Below are positions 16,938-36,405 of a stretch of DNA of 37,396 bases, piece after piece. The notes under the pieces were generated by a model. That model was not told the DNA's origin and did not search any database. It worked only from the letters and a program-made list of their open reading frames with translations. This DNA comes from Nitrospirae bacterium GWC2_57_13 (GTDB lineage Bacteria; Nitrospirota; UBA9217), in NCBI GenBank assembly GCA_001805055.1, contig MHDZ01000098.1, forward strand, positions 1 to 37,396, in the 5' to 3' direction. Numbering within the stretch: position 1 is the first letter of the stretch; each line of letters begins with the position of its first letter. Position numbers and translations under genes: made by a program.

Positions 16938-18497
16938 TCATGCCTTTCTTCGTGTCAGCATATCCCCCGCAGCCTGCTGTATCTCATCCATCCTGTCGTA
17001 GGCTGCTATGCGGACATCAGCCTCGCGGAAATGGTCAAGGATATAGGGGCTGTCAAAGGAAATGACCACCGTCCGGCTGCCTGCGGCCTGCGCTGCCTTC
17101 AGCACCGATCGGCCCGCCTCTTCAAGGTCCGCAGAGATCCCTGACCGTCCCTTGGAAGCTGAGATCTTCGAAAAGATCGCAACGATGACCGATCCTGATG
17201 AGCCGATGCCTTTGGCAATCTCGGCCTGAGACAGGACTGTTCCCGGAGCCAGGACAACACTCGACAGTTTCCTGAACTTCCTTCCCAGCCGCTCCAGAAG
17301 CGCCTTTCCCATTCCCTGAGCATCATCGTCCAGCACGAAGCAGGCCGCTCCTCCCGAAGGCTTCAGGGGGAGCATCGTTTTGCCGGCTGCGATCACTTCA
17401 GGCGCTTTTGCAGCTATCTCGCGGGCAATGCGGCGGTGCCGGGCCCAGGCAATGCGGGGAGTGCGGGCCTTCTCATCAAAGAGACCTAGCCGCGTTTTCG
17501 CAGCCAGGACCCTGCCTGCAGACTCGCGCACCCGTTGGGCTGTAAGCCTCCCCTCTTCCACAGCGGAAAGAACAGCCTTGATCGTGCGCCGCGCGTCCAC
17601 GGGATGCAGCAGGATATCAATGCCTGCTTCCAGGGCCCGGACAGCGATCTCCTCCTGCGAATAGTCGTTCGCCAAGGCTCCCATATCGAGGGCGTCCGAC
17701 ACGATAAGGCCCTCGAAGCCCATGCCCTCGCGCAGCAGCGCGGTGATGATCTTCTTCGAAAAGGTCGTTGGCTTGGAGGGCTCCAGGGCCGGCACCATGA
17801 GGTGCGCCACCATCACCGTTCCCACGCCGTCCTTGACCGCCTCCCGGAAGGGCGGCAGTTCCACGCGGTTCAGCCGCGCCTTCTCGGCCCTGATCACCGG
17901 CAGCACCGAGTGGGAATCCTGGTCCGTATCTCCGTGGCCGGGAAAGTGCTTGGCACAGGCCAGCAGCTCAAAAGTGCCGTTCCGCAGCGGCTTCTGCAGC
18001 CGCCGGATGTATCTCGCACCGAACCACTCGACCGTCTCGGGATCCTCGCCAAAGGCCCGGGTGCAGATAATGGGATTGTGCGGATTATTGTTCACGTCCA
18101 CAACGGGAGAAAAGACGATATGTATGCCTGCGGCGCGCGATTCAGTTCGCACCGCATCGAGCATGGCCGCAAGCAGGGCCTCGTCGCTCCGGGACTGCCT
18201 GCGGCAGGCCGATGCTATGGCCCGCTGGCCCGGGAACCGGGTGCCGCCGGCAAGCTGCTGGCCCAGCCCCCGCTCCACGTCCGAGGAGATCAGCAGCGGC
18301 GTTGTTGCGAGGGATTGCAGGTCCCTGATGCGCTGCGGTGTGCGCTTCACGTCTCCGCCAAAAAGAATGAACCCTCCGATCCCCTCACGCACGAGCGACT
18401 CTATTTCCGCACGGTATGCGTGATCTTCCAGGTCTGCGCCGTTGATCCTCGGCATGACGATCTGTGCTGCTTCACCTCTGACACTTGCATTTTGCAT
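16938..18497 (-). CDS. nagZ: Glycoside hydrolase family 3, beta-N-acetylhexosaminidase
   Basis: Cytoplasmic GH3 enzyme of 519 residues from my chosen start. It is expected to remove N-acetylglucosamine from muropeptides during cell-wall recycling. The NagZ signature KHFPGHGDTDQDSH is present, as is the nucleophile region GLIVSDALDMGALAN. A C-terminal extension of about 170 residues follows the TIM barrel, longer than Escherichia coli NagZ and like the two-domain Gram-positive form. The frame is open 39 codons further upstream, but that extension contains the CTCACACAAAG repeat. Starting at 18497 places the ATG exactly 6 bases after a -10 box. No Shine-Dalgarno is seen, consistent with a leaderless mRNA. 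Confidence 0.88.
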   Translation of the reverse strand: MQNASVRGEAAQIVMPRINGADLEDHAYRAEIESLVREGIGGFILFGGDVKRTPQRIRDLQSLATTPLLISSDVERGLGQQLAGGTRFPGQRAIASACRRQSRSDEALLAAMLDAVRTESRAAGIHIVFSPVVDVNNNPHNPIICTRAFGEDPETVEWFGARYIRRLQKPLRNGTFELLACAKHFPGHGDTDQDSHSVLPVIRAEKARLNRVELPPFREAVKDGVGTVMVAHLMVPALEPSKPTTFSKKIITALLREGMGFEGLIVSDALDMGALANDYSQEEIAVRALEAGIDILLHPVDARRTIKAVLSAVEEGRLTAQRVRESAGRVLAAKTRLGLFDEKARTPRIAWARHRRIAREIAAKAPEVIAAGKTMLPLKPSGGAACFVLDDDAQGMGKALLERLGRKFRKLSSVVLAPGTVLSQAEIAKGIGSSGSVIVAIFSKISASKGRSGISADLEEAGRSVLKAAQAAGSRTVVISFDSPYILDHFREADVRIAAYDRMDEIQQAAGDMLTRRKA

Positions 18498-18503
18498 GGC
18501 GCT

Positions 18504-18532
18504 ATTCTCGCTTTTTCCGGAGTCTATTTCAA
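18504..18532 (-). promoter_or_regulatory. Probable promoter for nagZ, leaderless type
   Basis: Minus strand: TTGAAA (18532-18527), 17 bases, GAGAAT (18509-18504), then six bases and ATG. The -10 is weak (4 of 6), but the spacing repeats the arrangement at gspF, the HD gene and fabF. Confidence 0.35.
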
Positions 18533-18560
18533 GTCTTTTTTGGTAACTACTCAGGCCTGT

Positions 18561-18580
18561 CTCACACAAAGACACAAAGA
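18561..18580. repeat. CTCACACAAAG repeat in the nagZ-GGDEF gap
   Basis: CTCACACAAAGACACAAAGA is related to the element at 16184-16257. The divergent gap 18498-18806 otherwise holds the two promoters and a small hairpin (AGGTAC, seven T, GTACCT; about 18675-18693), and no gene. Confidence 0.55.
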
Positions 18581-18714
18581 AAGGCTTATTAATCCGGATT
18601 ACAACCGAAAACATATTCCTCGTTCGTCCTTACTTCGTGCCGACCTGAGAGAAAAAGGTTCTACGGTACTGAGCAGGTACTTTTTTTGTACCTATGTGTG
18701 CTGCGTCTTTTGCG

Positions 18715-18743
18715 TTGACCGGGAAAGGCTGGTAGGCTATACT
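18715..18743 (+). promoter_or_regulatory. Sigma-70-type promoter for the GGDEF/EAL gene
   Basis: TTGACC (18715-18720), 17 bases, TATACT (18738-18743). The predicted start near 18750 leaves a leader of about 57 bases before ATG 18807. Confidence 0.65.
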
Positions 18744-18806
18744 TTTCTTGGTTGCCCGTGGAATCCGGTTCCTGCCCTGAAGCCACTGGAAAGGCGCTCT
18801 TATCTC

Positions 18807-20639
18807 ATGCTGGATTTCCTGAACATCTTCACGAAGCAGCGTCGTATGCGCAGGGCCATGGAGTTCCAGGCCCGGTTGCTCAATGGACTTGAACTAACCT
18901 CTGATCTGACTCGGAACTGGACCGATCAGATCAAAAGGGTCGTCAGGGAAGCCTCGGACATCTGCGACATCCCCTTCATCTTCGTTCTCCTGCCCCTTGA
19001 CACGGATCGGTACTCTCTTGAATTATTCTGGCTCCACGCCCCGAACGCTGTCCTCAGGGAAAAGGCGGACGCTCGTATCCGGCAGGCGCTGATCCGCGAT
19101 CCACAGGTGCTGCAGCAGGAGAAAGTGGCGAAAGTGCCGGGGGTCCACACGTCGGCATTATCCACCCCGGGACCGGCCGGCCCCGACAGCATAAAAGATA
19201 TCCTGACGAGAAGCTTCCATCTCGAGACGCCCCCGCTCACCGGCATGGTCGGCGCGGCACTGGGAATGAAAAAAACAAAAAACTCCCTCGACGACCTTAT
19301 CCTGAACAGCATCCTCACAACGGTGATAAATGTCGTCAAATCAGTGTCGGCCATAAACGCCTATACGCGCGAGATCGAGCGCTTTGCCACGCGTGACCCT
19401 CTGACCGGTTTGTATAACCAGGTTGCCTTCTGGGACCTTCTGGAATACGAAACACAGCGTTCGAAGCGACAGAACTACTCCTTCTCGCTCCTGCTGGTCG
19501 ATGTTGACAACTTTAAAACGCTGAACGATACTTATGGCCATGATGTGGGAGATACGTTCCTCCGGGAATTCTCAAAGATCCTGAAAGTCTCGGTCAGAAA
19601 GGGGGACATCCCTGCCCGTTACGGCGGCGATAACTTCACGGCCATCCTGCCTGTATGCGATGAGGAACAGGCCTATGCCGTCTCAAAACGCATCATCGAC
19701 AGCGCCAGGGAGATCGTTGTCACGCTCCCTGACGGCACGGAGGTTCGGGAGACCGTCTCCATAGGTCTTGCAGTCTTCCCCTCTCACGCGCAGGATGCCC
19801 GCGACCTGTTCCTGATCGCCGACAACATGGTCCACCAGGCGAAAACCACGGGCAAGGACCGCATGAGCTTCCCGAGCGACTCAGACGACGTGGCAGTGCT
19901 GCGCAGCATAGGCGAGAAGAACATCATTATTATGGAGGCTTTTTCGCAGAAACGGATCCATCCTTATTTTCAACCCATCGCGAACGTGAAGGACATGCGA
20001 TACGAGGCCCACGAAGTGCTCACGCGGATCATAACCAATGACCGGGTGATCCCGGCAGCCGAATTCATTGAAACCGCCGAAGGCATGGGCATGATCGGCA
20101 AGATCGACTACCAGCTTTTCGAACGGGCCTTCGCCATTGCCAGGGACCAGCAATACCAGGGCAAGCTCTTCCTGAACCTCTCGCCTAAGGCGCTCATTAT
20201 GAGCGATTTCATGCCCACGGTCAGGAAGATCATGCGCGACTATTCCATTGAATCCTCGCAGATCGTCTTCGAGATCACCGAGCGGGACACGGTGAAGAAC
20301 ATGGGCCTTGTAGAGCGGTTCATCCAGGACCTCAAACAGGACGGGTTCCGGTTCGCCATTGACGACTTCGGAGCGGGATATTCCTCCTTCCAGTACATCA
20401 AGACCTTCAGCATTGATTATCTGAAGGTGGACGGGGAATTCATCCGCAACATGCTCCAAAAGGGAAAGATGGAAAAGGCGATCGTTTCGAGCATCGCGGC
20501 CCTGGCAGCCACCCTGGGCATCAAGACCATCGCCGAATACGTGGAATCCGCCGAGATCCTGGACGAAGTGACGACAATGGGCATTGATTACGCCCAGGGC
20601 TACTACATCCAAAAGCCAGCGCCCACGTTGACGATGTAA
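18807..20639 (+). CDS. GGDEF/EAL protein, probable c-di-GMP phosphodiesterase
   Basis: A 610-residue protein. Residues 1-190 are an unrecognised helical or GAF-like sensor region. A GGDEF domain follows (DPLTGLYNQVAFWD, DVDNFKTLNDTYGHD) whose signature reads GGDNF at 273-277, so the catalytic Glu is Asn. The EAL domain (from about 380) has its motif as EVL at 403-405. The other key residues look present: NLSPKAL, FEITERD, AIDDFGAGYSS, LKVDGEFI, TIAEYVE and the final YAQGYYIQKP. Expected activity is c-di-GMP hydrolysis to pGpG, with the GGDEF domain as a possible GTP-binding regulator. No membrane segment is seen. The frame is open far upstream, antisense to nagZ, but the promoter and GGAAAGG support ATG 18807. 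Confidence 0.88.
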   Translation: MLDFLNIFTKQRRMRRAMEFQARLLNGLELTSDLTRNWTDQIKRVVREASDICDIPFIFVLLPLDTDRYSLELFWLHAPNAVLREKADARIRQALIRDPQVLQQEKVAKVPGVHTSALSTPGPAGPDSIKDILTRSFHLETPPLTGMVGAALGMKKTKNSLDDLILNSILTTVINVVKSVSAINAYTREIERFATRDPLTGLYNQVAFWDLLEYETQRSKRQNYSFSLLLVDVDNFKTLNDTYGHDVGDTFLREFSKILKVSVRKGDIPARYGGDNFTAILPVCDEEQAYAVSKRIIDSAREIVVTLPDGTEVRETVSIGLAVFPSHAQDARDLFLIADNMVHQAKTTGKDRMSFPSDSDDVAVLRSIGEKNIIIMEAFSQKRIHPYFQPIANVKDMRYEAHEVLTRIITNDRVIPAAEFIETAEGMGMIGKIDYQLFERAFAIARDQQYQGKLFLNLSPKALIMSDFMPTVRKIMRDYSIESSQIVFEITERDTVKNMGLVERFIQDLKQDGFRFAIDDFGAGYSSFQYIKTFSIDYLKVDGEFIRNMLQKGKMEKAIVSSIAALAATLGIKTIAEYVESAEILDEVTTMGIDYAQGYYIQKPAPTLTM

Positions 20640-34004: not shown

Positions 34005-34096
34005 CCAACGTACTTTCTCACCTGATTGCAATAGGCGCCCTAACTTTCAAATCTGACATTCAATATATCCGCACTTCATGAAAGGAGGTCAGCATA

Positions 34097-35386
34097 ATGA
34101 AACGAATCAGCAAGTTTATTGCAGTATTCGCCCTCATCGCGCTGCCGCTCCTGCTTACGGCCGGAAGCCGTGACGCAGGCGCCGCGGAAACGAAAAAGGC
34201 GAAGACCATCGACGAACTCGCAGCAATGTATGACTCAAGCTCCTGCAAGCAGTGCCATGAAGAGATCTACAACGACTGGAACAAATCGCTCCATGCCCGG
34301 TCCATCTTCGGCACGGGCCGCACCGCCGCCACCATCAAGACCACGGTGGAAGTGGGACTCAAAGGCTGGAAATACTCGGGGGTAAAAAAAGCCGAGGACG
34401 TGGAGCTGCGGCACCTCATGATCTGCGCCAAGTGCCACCTTCCCCAGCTCGCCGACGCCACAGATGCCGTGGCAAAGGAGATCGTGAAGGCCGCCTACAC
34501 CTACGCAGATCCGAAAACGAGCGACTCGGAGCGCGAGAAGGCCATTGCCAAACTGGAGAAGGTGAACATCAACTGCCTCATCTGCCACCAGCGCAATGCT
34601 ATCACCCACAAGTGGGTCGACGGCACACCGGACCGCAAGACCGTGTACGGCTCAAAGAACGGCGACCATCCCGCGCCAGGCCATCCGAAAATGAAGACGA
34701 GCCCCATCATGAGCGAATCCATTCTTTGCGGACAGTGCCACGGCCAGGGGCCGAATTTCGAGCTCGAGAACCCCTCCCAGTGCGCCACGCTCTACGGCAG
34801 CTACCTCTTCTCCTACCGTCATGATGGCGGCCAGGAGTCCTGCCAGGAATGCCACATGAAGAAGAGCAAGCTCGGCCACAACATGCAGAGCTACCGCTCC
34901 AAGGCGCTTACCGACGCGGCCCTTGACTTTCACGTGGACATGCTGCCGCACCAGTGGCGCGACGGCTCCAAGATGGTCCCTGAGACACGCGTGCAGGTGG
35001 AAATGGTCAACCGGGCCGGCCATGCCATCCCCGATGGCTGACCAACGCCGAATAGACTGGTCCTGGAAGTGACCAGCAAAGACAGCAAAGGCAAGGAAGT
35101 GTTCAGGGAAATCAAGACCTACATGCCCATACCGCATCAGCTCGGCCGCGGGGACAAGATGGGCCGCGGGCCCTATGACAAAAGCGGCATTCTGCGCGAA
35201 ACCAGCCTTGCGCCCGGCAAGCAGACGCGCGAGACGTTCATGATCCCCTTCCCCTCCGGGGAGACCGACATGACCGTGACCGTGGAGCTGTGGTACCTGC
35301 CCTTCGGCACCAAGTCCGACCCGGACAACGCGTTCCTGTGGCGGAAAGAGACGAAGAAGGTGAGCCTGGAAAAGGGCGGAGTGTAG
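34097..35386 (+). CDS. Pentaheme cytochrome c with in-frame UGA, probable selenoprotein
   Basis: An exported multiheme cytochrome c. A signal peptide (about 1-30) is followed by five CXXCH heme sites: CKQCH, CAKCH, CLICH, CGQCH and CQECH. The start has a perfect AAAGGAGGT. The frame meets TGA at 35039-35041 (codon 315) and then continues, same frame, for 114 more codons to TAG 35384-35386. The join reads AGHAIPDG-UGA-PTPNRLVLEV, in the middle of a beta-rich domain, so both sides belong to one protein of 429 residues. A hairpin begins 15 bases after the UGA, and the terminator lies after the second part. UGA as selenocysteine is the best reading. I recall selenocysteine in ExtKL-type multiheme cytochromes of Geobacter relatives, but could not check it. 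A nonsense mutation or sequence error is the alternative. Confidence 0.85.
35057..35076 (+). promoter_or_regulatory. SECIS-like hairpin after the UGA codon
   Basis: CTGGTC (35057-35062) and GACCAG (35071-35076) form a six-base-pair stem over an eight-base loop CTGGAAGT. With two more pairs (C63-G69, T64-A68) the apical loop becomes GGA and T35070 bulges. Bacterial SECIS elements lie just downstream of the UGA with G at the loop start and a bulged U; here the bulge is on the 3' side, unlike Escherichia coli fdhF. Confidence 0.55.
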
Positions 35387-35420: not shown

Positions 35421-35456
35421 AAGGCCGGTGGAAGGAGACAATCTTCCACCGGCCTT
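35421..35456 (+). terminator. Intrinsic terminator of the cytochrome gene
   Basis: AAGGCCGGTGGAAG (35421-35434), loop GAGACAAT, CTTCCACCGGCCTT (35443-35456): a perfect 14-base-pair stem followed by TCGTTTC. It lies 34 bases after the distal stop codon, so the whole read-through frame is in one transcript. Confidence 0.85.
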
Positions 35457-35572: not shown

Positions 35573-35617
35573 TTGACATTATCATTGTCCATCATATATA
35601 CTCTTGATATACATCAA
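35573..35617 (+). promoter_or_regulatory. Promoter and inverted-repeat operator of the toxin-antitoxin-like pair
   Basis: TTGACA (35573-35578), 18 bases, TATACT (35597-35602). TTGAT-ATAC-ATCAA (35604-35617) lies on the expected start site (about 35609), a typical position for autorepression. Confidence 0.55.
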
Positions 35618-35645: not shown

Positions 35646-35846
35646 ATGCGCTCAAGAATTATCGAACAATTACGGGAAGAGCAACGACGATCCTTTACCC
35701 GGCTTGATCCGGTGGACAGGATATTACGAATGGAACAGGTACTGCACGAAATGCTCGCCATCAAGGCGGAGGCGGAAGGAGTTGCCATCGGTGAAATCTA
35801 TCGTCGATACCTTGAGATTGATAAGCGACGCCGTCACACAGTTTGA
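35646..35846 (+). CDS. Small charged helical protein, possible antitoxin partner
   Basis: A 66-residue protein rich in Arg and Glu, almost wholly helical (RSRIIEQLREEQRRSFTRLDPVDRILRMEQVLHEMLAIKAEAEGV). No DNA-binding motif is certain. ATG 35646 is chosen over an in-frame TTG at 35604 that lies inside the operator. The next gene starts inside its last 56 bases in another frame, a strong sign of a joint unit. Its position in front of a nucleotidyltransferase-fold gene, with an operator at the promoter, suggests an antitoxin or regulatory role; that is inference. Confidence 0.65.
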   Translation: MRSRIIEQLREEQRRSFTRLDPVDRILRMEQVLHEMLAIKAEAEGVAIGEIYRRYLEIDKRRRHTV

Positions 35847-36405
35847 ACAAGAGACGAACCAAGCCGCCCTGATCGCACTCATCGGCGGCTATGCAGCGCT
35901 CTACTACGGCTCCGAGCGCACTACCTTCGATGTTGACACCTGTTTTTACGTCTCGAATGATGCGCCGGGCAGATCTTTTTATGTGTGGCTGAAAAAATAC
36001 CTTCCAAGCCATTTTGAACTCCGTTTCATGGAAGCCAGTAAAGATCCAACCGATCCGTTCAAGCACGACCTTATTACCATAACGGATGCACAGGAAGAGT
36101 ACCCTCGGATAGACATTATGATTGTCCGATACAAGTGGGAACTGGAAGGGCTGGAGCAGGCGGAAACGGTCCCCCGGCTCAATTTCCCGGTCATTCCGCC
36201 GCCGTATCTTGTCGCCATGAAGCTCGTAGCAGGCGGAAGAAAGGATGAGTTGGACATCCTCGCTATGGTGAAGGAAATGACCGAAGAAACCCTGAACAAA
36301 TCAAAAGAGCTCGCCAAGCGCGTTCACCGGGACAAAAAGCTTACCCGACTGCTGAACCCGCCGCCGGAAGAGGAAGTCAGGGAAACACCGGAAGAGTATC
36401 TGTAA
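35791..36405 (+). CDS. Minimal nucleotidyltransferase-fold protein (DUF6036/AbiEii-like), possible toxin
   Basis: A 204-residue protein from GTG 35791, which has GGAAGGAG about 10 bases upstream. The nucleotidyltransferase signature is visible: IGGYAALYYGSERTTFDVDTCF gives the GG and paired Asp residues, and YPRIDIMIVRY supplies the third acidic position. PPYLVAMKLVAGGRKDELDILAM is the helix seen at the end of the AbiEii and DUF6036 family domains (Lys and Asp conserved). The C-terminus is charged (RVHRDKKLTRLLNPPPEEEV). Related proteins act as toxins that modify tRNA or as parts of defence modules; activity here is unproven. It overlaps the upstream small gene by 56 bases. Most of this and the preceding gap is less GC-rich than the core genes. 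Confidence 0.72.
   Translation: MKSIVDTLRLISDAVTQFEQETNQAALIALIGGYAALYYGSERTTFDVDTCFYVSNDAPGRSFYVWLKKYLPSHFELRFMEASKDPTDPFKHDLITITDAQEEYPRIDIMIVRYKWELEGLEQAETVPRLNFPVIPPPYLVAMKLVAGGRKDELDILAMVKEMTEETLNKSKELAKRVHRDKKLTRLLNPPPEEEVRETPEEYL

Follow-up and report, generated by a model that had tools for sequence, protein, structure and literature searches.

The 37,396-nucleotide stretch analyzed here (the window; contig MHDZ01000098.1 from Nitrospirae bacterium GWC2_57_13) contains, towards its 3' end, a gene for a multiheme cytochrome c whose reading frame is interrupted by a single in-frame TGA. The gene and its signals, with the evidence for each, are as follows.

34081-34088, + strand: Shine-Dalgarno-like sequence AAAGGAGG ahead of the ATG at 34097 (direct reading)
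34097-35386, + strand: extKL gene, encoding a selenoprotein of 429 residues, a pentaheme cytochrome c, with read-through of an internal UGA (NF040886 and PDB MccSep matches)
34244-34258, + strand: heme-binding motif 1, CKQCH, residues 50-54 (translation, alignment A1)
34424-34438, + strand: heme-binding motif 2, CAKCH, residues 110-114 (translation, alignment A1)
34574-34588, + strand: heme-binding motif 3, CLICH, residues 160-164 (translation, alignment A1)
34727-34741, + strand: heme-binding motif 4, CGQCH, residues 211-215 (translation, alignment A1)
34841-34855, + strand: heme-binding motif 5, CQECH, residues 249-253 (translation, alignment A1)
35018-35038, + strand: GHAIPDG motif directly before the selenocysteine (alignment; His309 invariant)
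35039-35041, + strand: UGA read as selenocysteine (Sec) 315 (family codon counts, alignment with MccSep residue 325)
35057-35076, + strand: bacterial SECIS hairpin, a 6-bp stem and loop starting 15 nt downstream of the UGA (synonymous constraint, stem-pair counts)
35421-35456, + strand: probable terminator, a 14-bp perfect inverted repeat with a TCGTTT tail (direct reading)

All five CXXCH sites named in the original prediction were found in the translation, and their Cys and His residues varied little or not at all across alignment A1; the N terminus of the product, judged by eye, is hydrophobic and resembles an export signal. Direct reading also placed the TGA at codon 315, with the frame open for the predicted 114 further codons up to a TAG at 35384-35386. 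Such an open extension alone carries little weight, since the window is GC-rich and, of its 46 long frames that end in TGA, 7 continue for at least 114 further open codons. None of the in-frame starts after the TGA (GTG at 35069, GTG at 35099, ATG at 35123, and ATG at 35159) was preceded by a convincing Shine-Dalgarno sequence, in agreement with the claim that a second start has no ribosome binding site. The inverted repeat that lies 3' of the distal stop, with arms at 35421-35434 and 35443-35456 followed by TCGTTT, is the probable terminator of extKL. A strong terminator had been claimed here; the perfect 14-bp repeat was indeed seen, but the consensus terminator scan did not include it among its listings.

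In a profile search, the read-through protein matched NCBIfam NF040886, entitled "multiheme c-type cytochrome (seleno)protein ExtKL", over residues 9-425 with 594 bits (curated cut-off, 250 bits), and the link to ExtKL made in the original prediction was thus right. Residues 23-426 matched the PDB MccSep entries 9WT8, 9WT9, 9WTA, 9WTB, and 9WTC at 1e-158, the two proteins being alignable nearly from end to end. Entries 9WT8 and 9WT9 are entitled "Multiheme cytochrome c selenoprotein, MccSep", and the set includes a U325A mutant (9WT9); codon 315 of the window gene aligned with MccSep residue 325, the U325A site, at which the wild-type chain has an X. ExtKL of Geobacter sulfurreducens (GSU2937-GSU2936) shares with the window gene the five CXXCH motifs and the single internal UGA read as Sec. 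The profile match bears out the proposed membership of the ExtKL group, which has already been named, listed in a selenoproteome review (PMC13188914), and solved structurally; what the gene brings is a corrected annotation rather than a discovery. Automatic gene calling that takes the TGA as a stop would end the protein at residue 314, losing most of the beta domain together with the Sec.

The nearest extKL relatives of the window's genome (3.3 Mb, 105 contigs) were Nitrospirota, and the distinct TGA-type genes of the family came mostly from Nitrospirota and Desulfobacterota. MccSep is nearer to the Geobacteraceae-type members L040, L046, L047, and L067 (78-84%) than to the Nitrospirota group of the window gene (about 65%).

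Because the family profile and the homologues cross the TGA unbroken, we consider the interrupted frame to be one gene. The TGA could instead be a true stop, the distal 114 codons then being either a separate gene or what is left of a decayed one; equal open extensions do arise by chance in the window, as counted above, a GTG-started ORF of 105 aa is present at 35069-35386, and ExtK and ExtL were at first annotated as separate proteins in Geobacter. We nevertheless regard a true stop as very improbable, and in practice it is refuted by the solved homologue, which is one chain across the site. Homologues do not end at residue 314 and three of them encode Cys at this codon, the downstream starts lack a convincing Shine-Dalgarno sequence, and termination here would cut the beta domain in two.

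Both of the residues that the original prediction proposed to look for at position 315, U and Cys, were found in the family: the codon was TGA in 61 distinct sequences and TGT or TGC in three (the Cys forms L075, L076, and L083), and the window gene shares the GHxxPDG-U context in which the in-frame UGA or Cys occurs. In Desulfobulbus elongatus the two forms occur together, Sec in L044 and Cys in L075. The Cys forms sit in two separate, well-supported parts of a tree that has some long branches and some placements marked as unsure by the tool, so that Sec would have changed to Cys at least twice if Sec is ancestral. A sequencing error or a recent nonsense mutation that made the TGA from a sense codon is exceedingly improbable and excluded in practice, since TGA stands at this codon in 60 further distinct genes and in a paralogue on contig C78 of the same genome.

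Bacterial selenocysteine requires a hairpin just downstream of the UGA. One had been predicted at 35057-35076, and the letters CTGGTC-CTGGAAGT-GACCAG were read at exactly this position. Synonymous codon identity at codons 320-326, which cover the hairpin, was 0.45 above expectation (7-codon windows across the gene: mean -0.01, sd 0.07), and this was the sole stretch of the gene under strong synonymous constraint. The six stem pairs were kept in 91% of cells, compared with 24-59% when the pairing was slid, and pair counting revealed three stem pairs that had changed on both sides. The three Cys homologues lack the hairpin motif, while in Geobacter-type members the hairpin is differently placed. 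RNAalifold predicted no consensus pairs from a short, 45-column alignment, so the case for the hairpin rests on the synonymous constraint and the pair counts. A third copy of the hairpin motif, at C15:51584, has no TGA upstream and was set aside as a chance match. On the other side of the UGA, the adjacent Gly codon (35036-35038) was GGC in 51 of the 61 genes, well above synonymous expectation, a hint that the sequence before the UGA is constrained too.

The genome was also found to contain selA, selB, selC, and selD, all four of the genes by which the original prediction had proposed to check Sec decoding. Contig C33 carries selA (identified by reading the ORF adjoining selB), selB, and a tRNA-Sec gene (selC) with the anticodon tca, and selD lies on C76 (G000:C76:25022-25939, L109); scores of 367 bits for selB, 364 bits for selD, and 66 bits for tRNA-Sec each exceeded the cut-off. 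The selD gene has an in-frame TGA of its own (GLSRTCG-U-AAKIGPTDL), so selenophosphate synthetase is likely to be a selenoprotein itself. Of the 15 relatives that carry a TGA-type extKL gene, 14 had a tRNA-Sec match above the cut-off and 12 a selB match, a further two selB matches being cut by contig ends; in genome G002, tRNA-Sec was present and no selB scored above the cut-off. For the relatives without an extKL gene, selB was above the cut-off in two of nine. Decoding of the UGA by stop-codon suppression or by a reassigned code (TGA as Trp) is hardly credible when the sense replacement in the family is Cys and never Trp, tRNA-Sec with the anticodon tca is present along with selA and selB, the hairpin is conserved, and TGA seems to serve as the stop codon of the C78 paralogue itself.

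Taken together, these results leave us highly confident that the window gene is a genuine selenoprotein gene of the ExtKL/MccSep family, in its Sec decoding as in its membership. We infer decoding in the source organism from the presence of the parts and from the solved homologue: at UGA 315 the ribosome would insert selenocysteine, with SelB and Sec-tRNA recruited by the hairpin 15 nt downstream, and the product would be a single exported pentaheme cytochrome c whose N-terminal two thirds hold the five hemes.

An AlphaFold2 model obtained with 43 family sequences as input (pLDDT 88, pTM 0.84) has a beta domain that runs continuously across the UGA, consistent with the earlier claim that the codon splits a continuous beta-rich segment, and places the Sec in a loop between two strands of this C-terminal domain. 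The best Foldseek match was the pentaheme cytochrome c552 of Thermochromatium tepidum (PDB 5ZE8; E 2e-14, TM about 0.6), and the match list held no MccSep entry. This cytochrome and the PHC family of cable bacteria resemble the window protein in fold, at 18% identity, but are not described as selenoproteins in the PDB title or in the text of the paper. A relation between PHC and ExtKL has been argued in PMC11976967, whose cable-bacteria authors count proteins resembling ExtKL among the cytochromes that have a five-coordinate heme and are potentially catalytic.

Outside the heme motifs, His66, Cys229, His261, and His309 were invariant in the 43 aligned proteins and His191 was present in 39 of the 43; His309 is likely to be a heme ligand. 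Both the alignment and the predicted structure put the Sec six residues after His309, in the GHxIPDG-U motif, and it is this position, together with the near-total retention of Sec, that points to a redox centre at the side of a heme. We hypothesize that the Sec would lie by a heme as a catalytic or substrate-binding redox centre and that electrons would pass between this centre and the chain of hemes, either in the periplasm or at the outer membrane; whether the Sec next to a heme is catalytic we judge to be about evenly balanced. Work in Geobacter, where ExtKL is a putative Sec cytochrome with a preliminary link to selenite reduction (PMC5877670), suggests that the substrate might be selenite or another oxyanion.

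Alternatively, the protein could be a selenoprotein whose Sec has a structural or regulatory role, for example in a selenenylsulfide with Cys229 or as a permanent heme ligand. We take this as a real possibility that falls short of probable: it is in keeping with the invariance of His309 beside the Sec and of Cys229, a residue outside CXXCH that all 43 aligned proteins share, whereas replacement of a purely structural Sec by Cys would be expected more often than in the three forms seen. The 61 Sec forms, the three Cys forms, and the very strong synonymous signature make up a clean natural set for asking why selenium is needed in a multiheme cytochrome, and solved homologue structures already exist for testing its role.

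What is added here to the known family is a second Sec-ExtKL gene on C78, the repeated change from Sec to Cys if Sec is ancestral, and the location beside fabF. The second, divergent Sec-type gene (G000:C78:37227-38396; L105:3228-4397, including the probable stop) shows 33% identity and scores 392 bits against NF040886; it is flanked by an aconitase gene on one side and Mla transport genes on the other, belongs to a separate clade, and has the motif GHRIPDG-U-LWSAK. Geobacter ExtKL sits in the extHIJKLMNOPQS cluster (PMC5877670), whereas the window gene adjoins fabF in a Nitrospirota-like host, its other neighbours in the window being genes without a Pfam match. No extH, extI, or other ext gene was recognized within the window, and to that extent the gene stands outside a cluster of the extH-extI-extJ type, which is typical of Geobacter and not part of the profile's definition. 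It is possible, though rather doubtful, that Nitrospirota Sec-ExtKL is independent of the ExtHI porin conduit, a selenium-centred heme reductase free in the periplasm, and that the two divergent Sec paralogues of one cell serve different reactions.

Several minor observations concern the neighbourhoods of extKL and of the window. A Tll0287-like gene of the histidine kinase type (HAMP, HisKA; L069:3530-5284) represents a cluster that accompanies extKL at about 15 loci, and no neighbour of this type was seen in the window; a DUF3373 gene (L055:660-2585) represents a cluster beside extKL in five loci. The commonest "neighbour" in the synteny clusters overlaps extKL on the opposite strand at the locus examined and was taken as an antisense shadow ORF. 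Elsewhere in the window, a long GGDEF-EAL ORF on the + strand (17535-20639; 1034 aa from a TTG) overlaps an opposite-strand glycosyl hydrolase family 3 gene over its first 1.1 kb, and its true start probably lies further in than 17535. Finally, a near-perfect sigma-70 promoter match (TTGACA-18-TATACT; 35573-35602, + strand) precedes a 233-aa ORF at 35704-36405 that has no Pfam match.
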